39,728 nucleotides of DNA from a virus. The stretch covers positions 1 through 39,728 of IMG/VR virus record IMGVR_UViG_3300004231_000045. One strand, 5' to 3'. This document shows, one piece after another, positions 5,832 through 28,394 of the stretch (position 1 is the stretch's first letter; each line of letters opens with the position of its first letter). The translations under genes and the position numbers were made by a program. The notes under the pieces are model-generated. The model did not search any database. It saw nothing but the letters and a program-made list of their open reading frames with translations, and had not been told where the DNA came from.

Positions 5832-6898
5832 TGGATGACTCCTTCAATTTCGAGGGAACAGAGGTGGTGGTTGGCATACTCAATGTCGATGTTGAAATCG
5901 TTGTAGAAACCGTAAATCAGCAGCGGCTCAAAGCCTTCTGCCGTGGTGCCGATGAAAACGCACAGGCGCCCCTGCAGGCTGGCCAGCCAGCGGTAGATGC
6001 GGTTGAAACGGGCTTTTTCAGTCAGGGCGACCAAGCTGGCCTTCTTGCTCCAGGAGCGCTGGACGATGGTCAGATTGCCGAAATCGTTCTTCTCTTTCTT
6101 GGTGTAGCTGACGATTCCGACGCGGGCCCCTGACTTGGTGGCGCCAATCTCCTTTACCAACCCGGGCTTGAGGACACCGACGCTGGCATCACCACTGGTT
6201 GCTTCCAGCGTGACCTCAAGCTCACAGTTGTTGAATTGGGCTGGCAGGTCGGTGATGACTACATCGGTCAGCGGCTCGAATTCGGCAGTGAACCACTCGA
6301 AAAACGATTGGATAACGGTTGCATCCAGATCTATGGTGCGGGTGGCAATGGTGGCGCCGCCTGGCCCGTCGCGCATGGTCACATAGGCCTTGCGGGCCGT
6401 GACGTCGAACAAGGCCAGGCCGGAGGTGCTGCCTGGACTCAATACCATCTTGAGGGGCGATGCCCCGGTGGTCTGGGTGCCGATCTCGTCGTCAAAGGCC
6501 GCCCACAGGTTGTTGGCGCTGACGGGAATCCATTTATCGGTATCCGTCAGGGGGTTTCCGATATTGGCGCCCACGACCGACTGGTAGACCATGTGCGTGG
6601 TGTTGTCCTGCACACGATCATCCTCAGCGTAGGTGACGCCGCTGTCGTAGGCCTGGTAGACCTGGCAGGTCTGTTTCCACCAGGTTCCGGATATGGCTGG
6701 CGTGTGGCCCACGTTGGCGGCCTGCCGGCTTTTGTACACCGTGATCAGGCCGGCAGCGCCGGCCACGGAAACAGTGGCGTCCAGCGCATAGCTGGTGGCA
6801 GGGTTGTAGGCGGCGGGTGCCGTCTCCACCACACTGGAGCTGACAAGCATGGCGTCAGACATGATGTGGGGGACGAGGATCAGCATATCTGTTTTCAT
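5828..6898 (-). CDS. Tail tip protein with two carbohydrate-binding-type repeats
   Basis: The protein is 356 residues. Two segments resemble the short chitin/carbohydrate-binding modules found in phage tail proteins: about residues 30-75 (YNPATSYALDATVSV to TWWKQ) and about 85-130 (YDSGVTYAEDDRVQ to DKWIPV). The C-terminal two thirds is an α/β domain I cannot name. It follows the tape measure gene with a 4-bp overlap, the usual place for distal tail and tip proteins. It may help bind the host surface. Confidence 0.75.
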   Translation of the reverse strand: MKTDMLILVPHIMSDAMLVSSSVVETAPAAYNPATSYALDATVSVAGAAGLITVYKSRQAANVGHTPAISGTWWKQTCQVYQAYDSGVTYAEDDRVQDNTTHMVYQSVVGANIGNPLTDTDKWIPVSANNLWAAFDDEIGTQTTGASPLKMVLSPGSTSGLALFDVTARKAYVTMRDGPGGATIATRTIDLDATVIQSFFEWFTAEFEPLTDVVITDLPAQFNNCELEVTLEATSGDASVGVLKPGLVKEIGATKSGARVGIVSYTKKEKNDFGNLTIVQRSWSKKASLVALTEKARFNRIYRWLASLQGRLCVFIGTTAEGFEPLLIYGFYNDFNIDIEYANHHLCSLEIEGVIQ

Positions 6899-12345: not shown

Positions 12346-12996
12346 TCAGGAAGCGCTGTAGCGGGTGATACGGCCCGTGCCGTTGATGGAGATGGCGTTG
12401 GTCATGATGGAGCCGTTGGCCATCTTGACGTTTTCGTTCATGGCAACACGGCATGGCGTGAGGATGATGGAGCCGGATTTCAGGGTCTTTTTCAGAACGG
12501 TGTCGGATTGGACTTCGGTCAGCGCTACCAGGGCGGCGTAGGCGGCGCCACCGAACTCATCGGCATCGATGTCGAAGGTTTCGGTGATGGCGCTGAAGCC
12601 GTCGTTGATGTTGGTCTCAACATCCGATTCGACGAATTTGACGGTGACGTTCTTGGGCTCGCCGCCGCTGTTGTTGGGGTTGAGCACCTTGTTGATCTGC
12701 TGGAAGGTGGTGATCTTGCGCACAGTGCCACCGCCAGAGCCAGAGGGGTAGAACTCGGAGTTGGTGGTGTTGATGCCTTCGGCCACGAAGTTATCGGTGG
12801 TGACCGATTTGACGCGCACGGCGCGGCGGTCCAGGCGGCCCCAGCCGGAGAAGAGCTGGAGAATGTCGCCCACAGAGTAGCCGTGCGCGGTGCAGGAGAC
12901 AACCGCTTCGGTGGCGTTGGAGATGCCGGTCACCGTTTTGGACGAGCCAAAGGCGGTGGCGGCGGAGAAGATGGTGCCGGTGGGAACAGATGCCAT
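12346..12996 (-). CDS. Major tail tube protein
   Basis: The protein is 216 residues, β-rich, with the start typical of siphovirus tail tube subunits (SVPTGTIFSAATAFGSSKTVTG) and a C-terminal region resembling the tube hairpin segment. It lies between the tail terminator and tail chaperones in standard order. It is expected to form the stacked hexameric rings of the flexible tail. Two terminator-like hairpins lie just upstream of its start (13018-13097). Confidence 0.88.
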   Translation of the reverse strand: MASVPTGTIFSAATAFGSSKTVTGISNATEAVVSCTAHGYSVGDILQLFSGWGRLDRRAVRVKSVTTDNFVAEGINTTNSEFYPSGSGGGTVRKITTFQQINKVLNPNNSGGEPKNVTVKFVESDVETNINDGFSAITETFDIDADEFGGAAYAALVALTEVQSDTVLKKTLKSGSIILTPCRVAMNENVKMANGSIMTNAISINGTGRITRYSAS

Positions 12997-25699: not shown

Positions 25700-26085
25700 C
25701 AACCCACCGCCCGAATTCCGCCGCGGGCCTTGATGTGGTCCAGCGCCTTGATCGCACGCTCCAGGGTACTGGCGGCGCCGTTGATCACCTCCACCAGTTT
25801 CACCGCCTCATCCTCGGGCGCCTTGCGGTCAGGGCGGGCGTGCAGCGTCTCGTCACATGCGTGGTGCAGTGGGTCGTAAGCCTCACAGAAGCTCATCAGG
25901 CGAACCACCTGGCCGAACGTCAGCCGCTGGTCCCCCGTTGGGCTGCAACATTCCTTCAGCCGCGCGTAGGCGCTCTCGGGCTTCATGTCCGGGAAGATGT
26001 GTGCGGCCACGATCTTGAAGGGCTTTCCGCTCTCCCCTATCGCACTTGCAATGGCGTCGAATTCATCGTCGTAGAACAGCTTCAT
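25699..26085 (-). CDS. Conserved early phage protein, unknown function
   Basis: This 128-residue protein begins MKLFYDDEFDAIASAIGESG with GGAG upstream. It contains a possible helix-turn-helix (FKIVAAHIFPDMKPESAYARL) and a helical C-terminus. It is the first gene of the tight leftward set that ends with the late regulator. It is probably a regulator (CII-like role possible), but I cannot confirm this. Confidence 0.7.
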   Translation of the reverse strand: MKLFYDDEFDAIASAIGESGKPFKIVAAHIFPDMKPESAYARLKECCSPTGDQRLTFGQVVRLMSFCEAYDPLHHACDETLHARPDRKAPEDEAVKLVEVINGAASTLERAIKALDHIKARGGIRAVG

Positions 26086-26164
26086 CGAAGGCTCCGTAAT
26101 TTTTAGGGGTGTTTAGGGGAGACGAATCCAGGCAAAAAAAACACACTTGCGGCATGGATCACAT

Positions 26165-26241
26165 TGAATTGGCGGGCACCCCGCATGGCTACACTGATTG
26201 CTCTCACACAACTCAACTTCACCAAGGGGGTGCCCATGAAA
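26165..26241. repeat. 77-bp structured leader repeat, copy 1
   Basis: This copy matches 26642-26718 at 75 of 77 positions and runs into the ATG of the 26236 gene. GGGCACCCC (26174-26182) pairs perfectly with GGGGTGCCC (26227-26235), which lies directly before the ATG and includes most of its AAGGGGG ribosome binding site. A local hairpin GCGGG-CAC-CCCGC (26172-26184) would compete with it. Confidence 0.9.
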
Positions 26242-26526
26242 ATGGACGAAAAATTTATTGCGCAAGTCATTGCAGAGTTCAAGACTGCACAAGGGCAAGC
26301 CCTGGCCATATTGACCCAGGCCATCTGCCAGCAACTAGACCCTGCCCGGCTCAAATCCGATCTCCAAAAACAGATCGCGGCAGCAAAGACACTACCCAGC
26401 GTCTCACCGATCGCCATACAGCTTGCAACCCACGCACAGGCGGCCGCAGAGGCGGAGAGCATGTTGCAAGCCAGGCATCCAAGCGAGGGACCCCATCCCA
26501 ATCGCAATGGGAAAGATACGCCCTGA
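26236..26526 (+). CDS. Small protein behind the first structured leader
   Basis: The protein is 96 residues from the ATG at 26236, chosen for the AAGGGGG 5 nt upstream. It is mostly helical (EKFIAQVIAEFKTAQGQALA) with a basic Pro-rich tail. The frame is also open through the leader, so an N-terminal extension from ATG 26185 is possible. It lies on the opposite strand from the early operon and overlaps the tail of a leftward frame (26351-26623). Function unknown. Confidence 0.55.
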   Translation: MKMDEKFIAQVIAEFKTAQGQALAILTQAICQQLDPARLKSDLQKQIAAAKTLPSVSPIAIQLATHAQAAAEAESMLQARHPSEGPHPNRNGKDTP

Positions 26527-26623
26527 CCGCAGTGGCATCGGAGCGCGTGAACCGCTTCAGCTCAGAAAGCTCGTATTTCCACAGCGCGGTCACATCGGCG
26601 TTGGGGTCAAGGGCATCAGACAT
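26351..26623 (-). CDS. Small leftward protein, possibly with a replaced C-terminus
   Basis: The ATG at 26623 has a strong GGAGG 5 nt upstream. The first 55 residues look like a real soluble protein (MSDALDPNADVTALWKYELS), but the last 30 are Arg/Pro/Trp-rich and lie antisense to the 26236 gene. It may be a true gene with an overlapping tail, or a gene whose end was replaced by an inserted cassette. Confidence 0.4.
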   Translation of the reverse strand: MSDALDPNADVTALWKYELSELKRFTRSDATAVRAYLSHCDWDGVPRLDAWLATCSPPLRPPVRGLQAVWRSVRRWVVSLLPRSVFGDRI

Positions 26624-26641
26624 GGGAACCTCCGTGCGTAA

Positions 26642-26718
26642 TGAATTGGCGGGAACCCCGCATGGCTACACTGATTGCTCTCACACAACTCAACTTCACC
26701 AAGGGGGTTCCCATGAAA
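26642..26718. repeat. 77-bp structured leader repeat, copy 2
   Basis: The two differences from copy 1 compensate each other: GGGAACCCC (26651-26659) pairs with GGGGTTCCC (26704-26712) before the ATG at 26713. A C:G pair in copy 1 is an A:T pair here, so the stem is preserved. Confidence 0.9.
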
Positions 26719-27009
26719 GACAAGAATCCGTTCGACCGGAAGATCGAACTCAACAAGGGCATGCCGGTCTTCGTGCGCAATGCCGCGATCGAATTGACGG
26801 ACACGCTAGACCTGTGCTGGGCAGCCGCACAGGCAGTGTTCGAGGGGAAAGCAAAACCCGAGCATGCACTGGCTCTATTGCCGATGTTCATGGAGCGGGC
26901 AGACGGGAAACGTCAACAAGCACTGACTCAGCATCACGACAATATGGCCGCCGCATCTGCACGAATCGAAGCGAAGAGAGGTCGCAAGCCCCCACCAAAG
27001 GCAAAGTAA
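26713..27009 (+). CDS. Small basic-tailed protein behind the second structured leader
   Basis: The protein is 98 residues from the ATG at 26713, with AAGGGGG upstream. It has a helical middle (DTLDLCWAAAQAVFEGKAKP) and a Lys/Arg/Pro-rich C-terminus (KRGRKPPPKAK) that may bind nucleic acid. Beyond the shared leader it has no obvious similarity to the 26236 product. It converges on and overlaps the leftward frame 26888-27112. Function unknown. Confidence 0.55.
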   Translation: MKDKNPFDRKIELNKGMPVFVRNAAIELTDTLDLCWAAAQAVFEGKAKPEHALALLPMFMERADGKRQQALTQHHDNMAAASARIEAKRGRKPPPKAK

Positions 27010-27112
27010 CCTCAGCCGCCAGAACTGCATCTTTGCTATGGCTGATGTGGGCCTCCAGATGCTGTACCTGGCCCAATGCCGGAAGGCTGTTCAGAAATTG
27101 CAGTGGCGTCAT
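26888..27112 (-). CDS. Small leftward phage protein, tentative
   Basis: This 74-residue frame starts at the ATG at 27112 with AGGGGGTG upstream. The N-terminal half (MTPLQFLNSLPALGQVQHLE) looks like real coding sequence; the C-terminal half is antisense to the 26713 gene. Either this or its partner may be spurious, or the overlap is genuine. Confidence 0.4.
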   Translation of the reverse strand: MTPLQFLNSLPALGQVQHLEAHISHSKDAVLAAEVTLPLVGACDLSSLRFVQMRRPYCRDAESVLVDVSRLPAP

Positions 27113-27207
27113 ATCACACCCCCTACGCTACGTTTTCACCCGCTGGCTGGGCGGTGTTGGCGAGGGCTGGAGCCAGTCTATTCAAATACTTCATACAGAA
27201 ACTCCAA

Positions 27208-27408
27208 ATGAAACGAGACATGGATATCGTCCGGCTGACATGGGAGGGCTGCGACTTTGCCGATGCTGTACGCAGCGACACGCTTTGGAAGAAAGCCAAG
27301 GAAATGGTGATCAAGCCCACAGCGTCATTCACCTTTGGACTGCTCAAGGACTGGCTCAAATCCGAGATCGCGCAGGGCCTGCCGACCCTCACCAAACTTG
27401 CACAGTAG
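27208..27408 (+). CDS. Shortened DUF2513-like protein
   Basis: The protein is 66 residues. It begins with the DUF2513-type start MKRDMDIVR and passes directly into the typical C-terminal part (LTWEGCDFADAVRSDTLWKK, then FTFGLLKDWLKSEI). Normal family members have about 50 more residues between these two parts, so this appears to be an internally deleted version. Its ribosome binding site is weak. It may be a remnant. Confidence 0.5.
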   Translation: MKRDMDIVRLTWEGCDFADAVRSDTLWKKAKEMVIKPTASFTFGLLKDWLKSEIAQGLPTLTKLAQ

Positions 27409-27609
27409 ATCGCGCAACTCCACCGCCGCCAGCAACGCACCCGTCTTCATGGTGTCGCCATGCGCAACCACGTCAGCAGGGCAAAACGGGAACGCCACCG
27501 ATGACTGTGCCAGCTCGAATAACCGCGCACATTGGTTTGCCACCAGGACCAGGAGCATCCGCTCCGAATCGTCAGTTGTCGGATCGAGCGTCAGAAATCG
27601 GACAGACAT
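27325..27609 (-). CDS. Small early protein downstream of the Cro-like gene
   Basis: The 94-residue protein starts at the ATG at 27609, overlapping the stop of the Cro-like gene (TGATG), so the two are translationally coupled. It has a helical C-terminus (LLAAVELRDLLCKFGEGRQA). It may be a YdaT- or CII-like partner by position only; I recognise no motif. Its last 84 bp overlap the DUF2513-like gene on the other strand. Confidence 0.55.
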   Translation of the reverse strand: MSVRFLTLDPTTDDSERMLLVLVANQCARLFELAQSSVAFPFCPADVVAHGDTMKTGALLAAVELRDLLCKFGEGRQALRDLGFEPVLEQSKGE

Positions 27610-27881
27610 CACACCACCTGGTTTACTGCGGTTTCAGTAGCTGTCTGCGCACTATTGGCGAGCGACTTGCGCAGATAGTCCCAATCAATATCGGGTCGAA
27701 CATCTTCGGGGCGCACACACCATTCCGATTCCGCCGCTATGCGAAGACACAGTCCTTCTCCAAGCTTCTGCTTGATCGAAACGGCCTTGCGGAGGTATCC
27801 GACAGACGTCTCGCACCGACGGGCAAAGTCTTCCTGGTCGGCCGGTCTGAGGCCATTGAGGTAGTCAGTGAGCTTTTCCAT
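27609..27881 (-). CDS. Cro/YdaS-like regulator
   Basis: The protein is 90 residues from the ATG at 27881. It has the Cro/YdaS helix-turn-helix (LTDYLNGLRPADQEDFARRC, SVGYLRKAVSIKQKLGEG). It diverges from the XRE regulator at 27966 across a set of operator dyads, the standard place for a Cro-like early regulator. The predicted promoter leaves almost no 5' leader, so its mRNA may be leaderless. Confidence 0.8.
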   Translation of the reverse strand: MEKLTDYLNGLRPADQEDFARRCETSVGYLRKAVSIKQKLGEGLCLRIAAESEWCVRPEDVRPDIDWDYLRKSLANSAQTATETAVNQVV

Positions 27882-27887
27882 GAGGTA

Positions 27888-27916
27888 ACTATACCTCAAG
27901 GTATTGCAGCAAACAA
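27888..27916 (-). promoter_or_regulatory. Predicted leftward promoter of the Cro-like gene
   Basis: On the minus strand TTGTTT (27916-27911), a 17-nt spacer and TATAGT (27893-27888) form a good sigma70 promoter. The ATG begins at 27881, only 7 nt beyond the -10 box, so transcription should start at or beside the start codon. Operator dyads overlap both boxes. Confidence 0.65.
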
Positions 27917-27944
27917 TACCCGCAGGCAATTTACCCGAAGGTAA
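27891..27944. promoter_or_regulatory. Three operator dyads of the lysogeny switch
   Basis: Three related 14-bp dyads lie between the diverging regulators: ATACCTCAAGGTAT (27891-27904), ATACCCGCAGGCAA (27916-27929) and TTACCCGAAGGTAA (27931-27944). Centres are 25 and 15 bp apart. A tripartite operator fits a lambda-like repressor/Cro switch. The same first pair, with the same 25-bp spacing, recurs upstream of the DGR operon. Confidence 0.75.
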
Positions 27945-27965
27945 TCAGTTGGAACAATCCACGCA

Positions 27966-28394
27966 ATGCAGAACGACTCTCGATTGCAAGCTCTTCTCGC
28001 TCAGATTCGGCACGACTATTGCCAAGACAATTCAACAGAATTGGCTCGCCGCATCAGCAAAGACGCCTCATACGTGCATCGCCTGTTCTATCCGCGGGAG
28101 AAGAAAGGCGCGAAGGGCATTGGCTTGGAAATCATGAATGCTTGTACTGAAGCGTTCAAACTACCACCGGGGTATTGGGATGGTTTTGGATCTATGCAGG
28201 GAACGATTTCCATGGATCAGCAAGCGCCATACCTCATACAGGCACCAGCAGTGGACGAATGGACCGCCGCCGCCCTTGCAATCATGAAGAGTCTTGACGC
28301 CGTGCAAAAAGCCCAGATGGTGGCAAAAATGCGGGAATACAAACAATTCCTCGGCCCGCCCCGCGACGGCCAAGCTCTACAAGTGGCCGGTTAG
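27966..28394 (+). CDS. XRE-type repressor candidate without a peptidase domain
   Basis: The 142-residue protein has an N-terminal helix-turn-helix (about residues 18-70, NSTELARRISKDASYVHRLF) and a helical C-terminus (ALAIMKSLDAVQKAQMVAKM). It lacks an S24 self-cleavage domain, so induction would need another signal or an antirepressor. It diverges from the Cro-like gene across the operators and is the best candidate for the prophage repressor. Confidence 0.75.
   Translation: MQNDSRLQALLAQIRHDYCQDNSTELARRISKDASYVHRLFYPREKKGAKGIGLEIMNACTEAFKLPPGYWDGFGSMQGTISMDQQAPYLIQAPAVDEWTAAALAIMKSLDAVQKAQMVAKMREYKQFLGPPRDGQALQVAG

Follow-up and report, generated by a model that had tools for sequence, protein, structure and literature searches.

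Two small genes in a stretch of viral DNA of 39,728 nt (IMG/VR record IMGVR_UViG_3300004231_000045; the whole stretch analysed is called the window below) are each preceded by a 77-nt leader, which belongs to a family of leaders of Burkholderiales phages and prophages. In this family pairing occurs at three levels, the outer stem lies on the ribosome binding site of the following gene, and the genes that follow are diverse. The pairing goes beyond chance, and according to the modelled folds the leader should mask translation starts; judged from sequence comparison, the hairpin itself is very probably real. We propose that the leader may be a modular cis-regulatory hairpin of Burkholderiales phages, in which an outer stem of about 9 bp would bury the Shine-Dalgarno sequence up to the ATG, and above which a middle stem (in many copies) and then a short apical stem would close a conserved loop.

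The two copies in the window are identical at 75 of 77 positions (97%), copy 2 sitting 477 nt downstream of copy 1 (Table 1). The sequence agrees with an earlier note on this DNA, which had described a duplicated 77-nt leader, each copy ending at the ATG of a small gene, and had claimed that the only two differences compensate. C at 26177 corresponds to A at 26654 and G at 26232 to T at 26709, and these are the two sides of the fourth pair (C:G in copy 1, A:T in copy 2) of a 9-bp stem, GGG(C/A)ACCCC with GGGGT(G/T)CCC, that abuts the ATG in both copies. The G run of the Shine-Dalgarno-like AAGGGGG is inside the 3' arm of the outer stem of copy 1. Both leaders are in frame with their own genes and contain no stop (ORFs 26164-26526 and 26641-27009).

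Table 1. Features of the two leader copies and their genes in the window
Feature	Position	Strand	Basis
Leader copy 1, 77 nt	26165..26241	+	Sequence repeat; covariance model R1 match 26166-26241, 86.8 bits (copy in R1 training set)
5' arm of outer stem, copy 1, GGGCACCCC	26174..26182	+	9/9 Watson-Crick with 26227-26235
-10-like element TACACT in hairpin loop, copy 1	26190..26195	+	TAnnnT conserved here; no -35 element
Apical hairpin TGA-TTG / CAA-C-TCA, loop CTCTCACA, copy 1	26195..26215	+	Predicted fold; family apical pairing z ~7
Shine-Dalgarno-like AAGGGGG, partly within 3' arm, copy 1	26224..26230	+	Sequence
3' arm of outer stem, copy 1, GGGGTGCCC, adjoins ATG	26227..26235	+	Sequence, pairing
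Gene A, 96 aa	26236..26526	+	Searches of viral contigs and phages gave no relative
Leader copy 2, 77 nt	26642..26718	+	Sequence repeat; R1 85.6 bits (copy in R1 training set)
5' arm, copy 2, GGGAACCCC, C to A at 26654	26651..26659	+	Sequence, pairing
-10-like element TACACT, copy 2	26667..26672	+	Conserved motif
3' arm, copy 2, GGGGTTCCC, G to T at 26709 compensates 26654	26704..26712	+	Sequence, pairing
Gene B, 98 aa	26713..27009	+	Relatives in phages and prophages, most with same leader

Viral contigs and two Burkholderiales genome bins encode relatives of gene B. Most of these follow the same leader with other stem letters; in L007 and L011 the gene is directly preceded by different sequence. 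A pattern search located the leader also before genes other than gene B relatives. The search for further copies by covariance model, which the earlier note had suggested, found them in Burkholderiales phages and prophages. In the bacterial family to which the Comamonadaceae bin belongs, R1, built from 13 leaders, had matches in 18 of 299 genomes. With R2, built from 39 matches, the figure for this family was 44 of 399 genomes at a cut-off of E 0.01, at which about four are expected by chance; some of the weakest matches precede ordinary host genes. R2 also matched in another Burkholderiales family (5 of 64 genomes) and, at E up to 0.003, in 5 of 369 genomes of a class-wide draw, two of which the search of the first family had already yielded. 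Two to four leaders per phage are seen in several cases, for example four in L013 (a 6.4-kb contig) and three each in L090, L146 and L148. The named Burkholderia phage Bcep176 has two, one before gp15 and one, on the opposite strand, at gp33, the latter with the arms GGCGGCCCC/GGGGCCGCC; the regions concerned are 6440-6545 (+) and 12600-12745 (-), and RNA-seq of B. cenocepacia K56-2 infected with this phage is described in PMC12584637. At 12611-12739 of Bcep176 (L122), minus strand, the annotated start of gp33 lies upstream of the leader, which suggests a later start at a TTG directly after the stem.

The family comprises 135 leaders, or 103 once those at least 88% alike are removed; L060, L106, L107, L108, L098 and one L102 entry, several of them preceding ordinary host genes, had been left out before as chance hits. 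The exact pattern TCACACA..AAGGGG..ATGAAA is absent from all 399 bacterial genomes, the bacterial copies being found by the models only. Exact leader words had no match in viral contigs, nor had the window leader in a DNA search of phages. Against Rfam 15, at gathering score, neither the leaders of the window nor those of eight other loci matched a family, and no description of this leader was found in the literature as judged by title or abstract.

RNAalifold recovered the stem unaided from 13 homologous leaders, and in all 13 aligned leaders GGG pairs with CCC and GAG with CTC. The 9-bp stem has 87.2% paired cells in this set, compared to 75.6% after shuffling and at most 56.4% on sliding; its covariation score is 0.328, compared to 0.134 (0 of 500 shuffles). 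Among 80 distinct leaders, a set from which two matches of at most 50 nt had been removed, there are 77 in which the last 9 nt ahead of the start form at least six of nine Watson-Crick pairs with an arm about 62 nt upstream. For the 73 of these that start with ATG, 560 of 657 stem cells are Watson-Crick (339 +/- 9 under row shuffles), and the best match to the own partner averages 7.63 of 9 against 5.91 +/- 0.09 in 5000 partner permutations. Compared to swapped partners, the 103 leaders yield z = 16.6 for the outer stem, 9.3 for the middle and 6.6-7.1 for the apical one, examples of which are GATGG/CCATC, ATTGG/CCAAT (L070), GCTGG/CCAGC (L056, L074 and L076), GCTTG/CAAGC (L097) and GCTGT/ACAGC (L053).

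Against circularity, leaders were also selected in two structure-blind ways, by a sequence-only model (R3) and by a loop-only pattern. R3 matched in 43 of 399 genomes; in the 13 stronger matches outside its training set the own arm scores 7.46 on average and the arms of others 6.06, the exceptions being L099 and L073, for which most swapped arms are equal or better. The loop-only pattern gave 48 stretches, reduced to 28 by removing those with flanks at least 80% alike. The simple 9-nt test is weak in the loop-selected set (6.14 against 5.89 +/- 0.11, permutation maximum 6.28), which in our view is partly due to the many members with a common stem and to stems that lie, in some, a few nucleotides off the ATG. 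The duplex energy of the flanks of the 28 leaders is -22.0 for own and -19.2 +/- 0.6 for swapped partners (0 of 5000), and folding of loop-selected leaders revealed extra inner stems. The earlier note had counted variation without conserved pairing among homologues as evidence against its reading; the stems do vary and the pairing is kept (RNAalifold, shuffles, permutations). Both window copies have the stem that it had placed over the ribosome binding site next to the ATG, and the pairing of this stem persists across homologues. In folds predicted for the 73 leaders, the 9 nt preceding the ATG are unpaired with a probability of 0.157 in the full leader, 0.310 with a shuffled 5' arm, and 0.563 if the RNA starts 33 nt before the ATG.

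A second fold fared less well. The local GCGGG/CCCGC hairpin that the earlier note had described as competing with the stem (26172-26176/26180-26184 in copy 1) exists in both window copies, but it is not conserved: a 5-bp hairpin at that place occurs in 25 of 103 leaders, within the shuffled range (mean 14, maximum 28), so that a conserved competing hairpin, and with it a pair of conserved exclusive folds, was rejected.

The loop is the most conserved part of the leader, and its main class reads UACGAUGG-nnG-nUC-nn-ACACAACC. It carries a -10-like element, TAnnnT followed by GG, with T, A and T at the three chief sigma-70 positions in 78%, 100% and 99%, percentages which are inflated because the anchor was chosen partly on the same letters. 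Scored as -10 elements, the embedded hexamers reach 4.9 bits compared to 0.07 in shuffles, a value biased upward by an anchor chosen with a similar motif. The variable positions between the invariant letters take part in the apical stem. A -35 element sought in the leaders scored -1.65, below the shuffles at -0.48, and a search of window positions 25950-28100 for a full sigma-70-type promoter gave no match; the primary promoters of Burkholderia cenocepacia have TAnAAT and a weak -35 (PMC4603805). The 5' arm is upstream of any start from the -10-like element.

Three points of our reading are inferred: the mRNA would be the strand that folds, its folding would block translation, and the -10-like element would act as a promoter. 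A transcript with the whole leader would fold and be poorly translated. The gene's own promoter would lie inside the hairpin, the -10-like element being on the loop strand, and an RNA started there would be devoid of the 5' arms, leaving the binding site open for translation. In effect, the gene would be expressed solely from its own promoter and read-through RNA would stay silent, the design known from T4 gene e. In phage T4, inhibitory 5' structures hide the ribosome binding site of gene e (also of soc, 49 and I-TevI) on long early transcripts, and promoters in the 5' strand of the gene e structure lead to short transcripts that escape the hairpin (PMC3014915). Similarly to gene e, prediction and covariation place a hairpin of the leader over the Shine-Dalgarno sequence up to the AUG. 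The T4 cases are single genes with T4 late promoters, whereas in Burkholderiales phages and prophages a single leader family stands in front of dozens of unrelated genes, and its promoter and its inhibition are putative. This gate with an embedded promoter is favoured since the loop carries the conserved -10-like element, and we see about an even chance for it. The upstream neighbours are divergent both in the window and in Bcep176, so that it is hard to see where read-through RNA would come from, which counts against this gate, as do the missing -35 element and the conservation past the putative start. The divergent ORFs of L109, from which an argument about space had been drawn, are not credible, and this argument was given up.

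The main rival, to which we give appreciable but clearly lower probability, is a switch or translational operator that acts in trans: transcription would cover the full leader, and a phage or host protein, small RNA or ligand binding the conserved bases of the apical and internal loops would open or lock the hairpin, with the accessory genes as a regulon. The leader has a paired scaffold with a conserved unpaired core, as in a riboswitch or translational operator, and the conserved loop caps helices that covary. Conservation is higher in the loop than in the stems, also where a promoter need not be, and extends beyond the putative start into ACACAACC; several leaders per phage would make a regulon. 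Against this reading, no effector of the leader is known, no Rfam riboswitch or leader matches, and the invariant loop positions are the -12, -11 and -7 of a -10 element. A combination of both, a portable RNA gate of Burkholderiales phages in which a three-tier hairpin with an apical loop acting as promoter and recognition site would form the front end of accessory genes, is a tentative proposal, less likely than not; if it were true, one phage or host factor or transcription state would switch many unrelated small genes jointly.

G-U pairs are scarce in the outer stem (7 of 657 cells in the 73 leaders, 40 being expected by shuffling), which is odd for an RNA helix and counts against a plain one. 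It is what would be expected if both arms had to match as DNA, i.e. if inverted protein-binding sites, or a single-stranded or cruciform DNA hairpin, were set around the promoter, and the arms do flank the -10-like element. However, leaders within one genome carry different arms, each fitting its own partner (L013, L018 and L091), hence one protein would not read them all. In 11 loci with at least two leaders the own 3' arm matches at 7.88 of 9 on average (n = 25) and those of neighbours at 5.97 (36 swaps), a comparison that disfavours a single repressor binding both arms. Moreover, three nested tiers covary and the stem keeps its place at the Shine-Dalgarno sequence and the ATG, and we hold a DNA-level element to be improbable. 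Among 59 cells of C-A or G-U type in 77 leaders, 47 are 5' C/3' A, and A-C, T-G and G-T account for 5, 4 and 3, respectively. We take this excess to reflect change from G to A confined to the 3' arm, with a preference for A before the start codon. An RNA from the bottom strand, considered since C-A outnumber G-U, was set aside, the excess being of the 5' C/3' A type alone.

Templated mutation, in which arm-to-arm copying during replication would keep the inverted repeat without selection, would yield paired changes such as the C:G to A:T of the window and few G-U intermediates, but it is made very unlikely by the C-A mismatch that 16 of 73 leaders have at the fourth pair, by the maintenance of apical and middle tiers of separate sequence and by the conserved loop. 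Equally slight are the prospects of a shared N-terminal peptide or upstream reading frame, which the earlier note had offered as its alternative: the leaders are indeed open frames joined to both window genes, and an ATG in the loop is in frame with the gene in 32 of 57 leaders, above one third, but it is out of frame in the other 25 and missing in 31 of 88 ATG-start leaders, and no Shine-Dalgarno sequence was seen upstream of it. The earlier note had named synonymous-only change as a sign of coding constraint; the codons ACA CAA CCA are almost without synonymous change in the in-frame group, and their third positions hardly vary in the 103-leader set. Taken as a whole, the earlier interpretation is partly supported.

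The genes behind the leaders are unrelated to one another. BLASTP distributed 107 downstream proteins, composed of a set of 67 and a set of 40 (of 41 listed), into 65 clusters; the set of 67 leaves out gene B relatives except that of L010, very short and chance proteins and one ambiguous protein. Few can be named: DUF2513 (3 of 67), KTSC (1 of 67 and 8 of 40), PHROG 1244 (7 of 67 and 3 of 40) and others, and PADLOC matched none of the 107. The leader genes are opposite in strand to a long replication gene in the window, where it encodes a VapE-like domain, and in several related phages. They adjoin the likely immunity region, a placement that relies on crude gene picks. Between the two window leaders, an ORF fragment on the minus strand (26351-26623) has a weak similarity to the VapE-like domain that does not reach the curated cut-off (E 0.0013); it looks as though part of the replication gene had arrived with the duplication. 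Further downstream, a plus-strand frame at 27208-27408 starting with MKRDMDIV resembles the DUF2513 proteins that stand behind leaders elsewhere and, read from the sequence, seems to be a shortened copy without leader.

At 29827-34657 the window has a probable diversity-generating retroelement, with a reverse transcriptase (PF00078) and two Lcl_C-like proteins. The Rfam RT-15 RNA is at 33274-33468, and we take the ORF at 32928-33290 to be Avd-like; a quick ungapped search of this element found no template/variable repeats.

In the transposase mRNA of IS10 and IS50, read-through RNA folds over the start site and RNA from the own promoter does not. These are transposons with one gene and a sequence unrelated to that of the leader family. 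In cluster K mycobacteriophages, short repeats (SAS and ESAS) stand at the translation starts of many unrelated genes, about half of the SAS being accompanied by inverted repeats upstream, and RNA pairing of the ESAS repeats is, in the view of the authors, generally not supported (PMC3203893). SAS is a fixed 13-nt sequence, GGGATAGGAGCCC, near start codons, and while ESAS pairing is unsupported, the pairing of the leader is strongly supported. The SAS consensus has no match in the window with up to two mismatches allowed. Burkholderiales-1, a weak candidate RNA in a row without Rfam number of the table of Weinberg 2010 (PMC2864571), has its host group in common with the leader family, the comparison covering this table row. 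The leader is new as a family and of a kind known in principle, with Burkholderiales-1 compared by host group alone.

The leader adds a covarying structured-leader family that matches nothing in Rfam 15. Bcep176, a named and growable phage that carries it, makes the mechanism testable. For the phages, the leader would be a reusable translation gate before dozens of uncharacterised genes, and it offers a handle for finding such genes, for asking when they are expressed and for testing a common control device.
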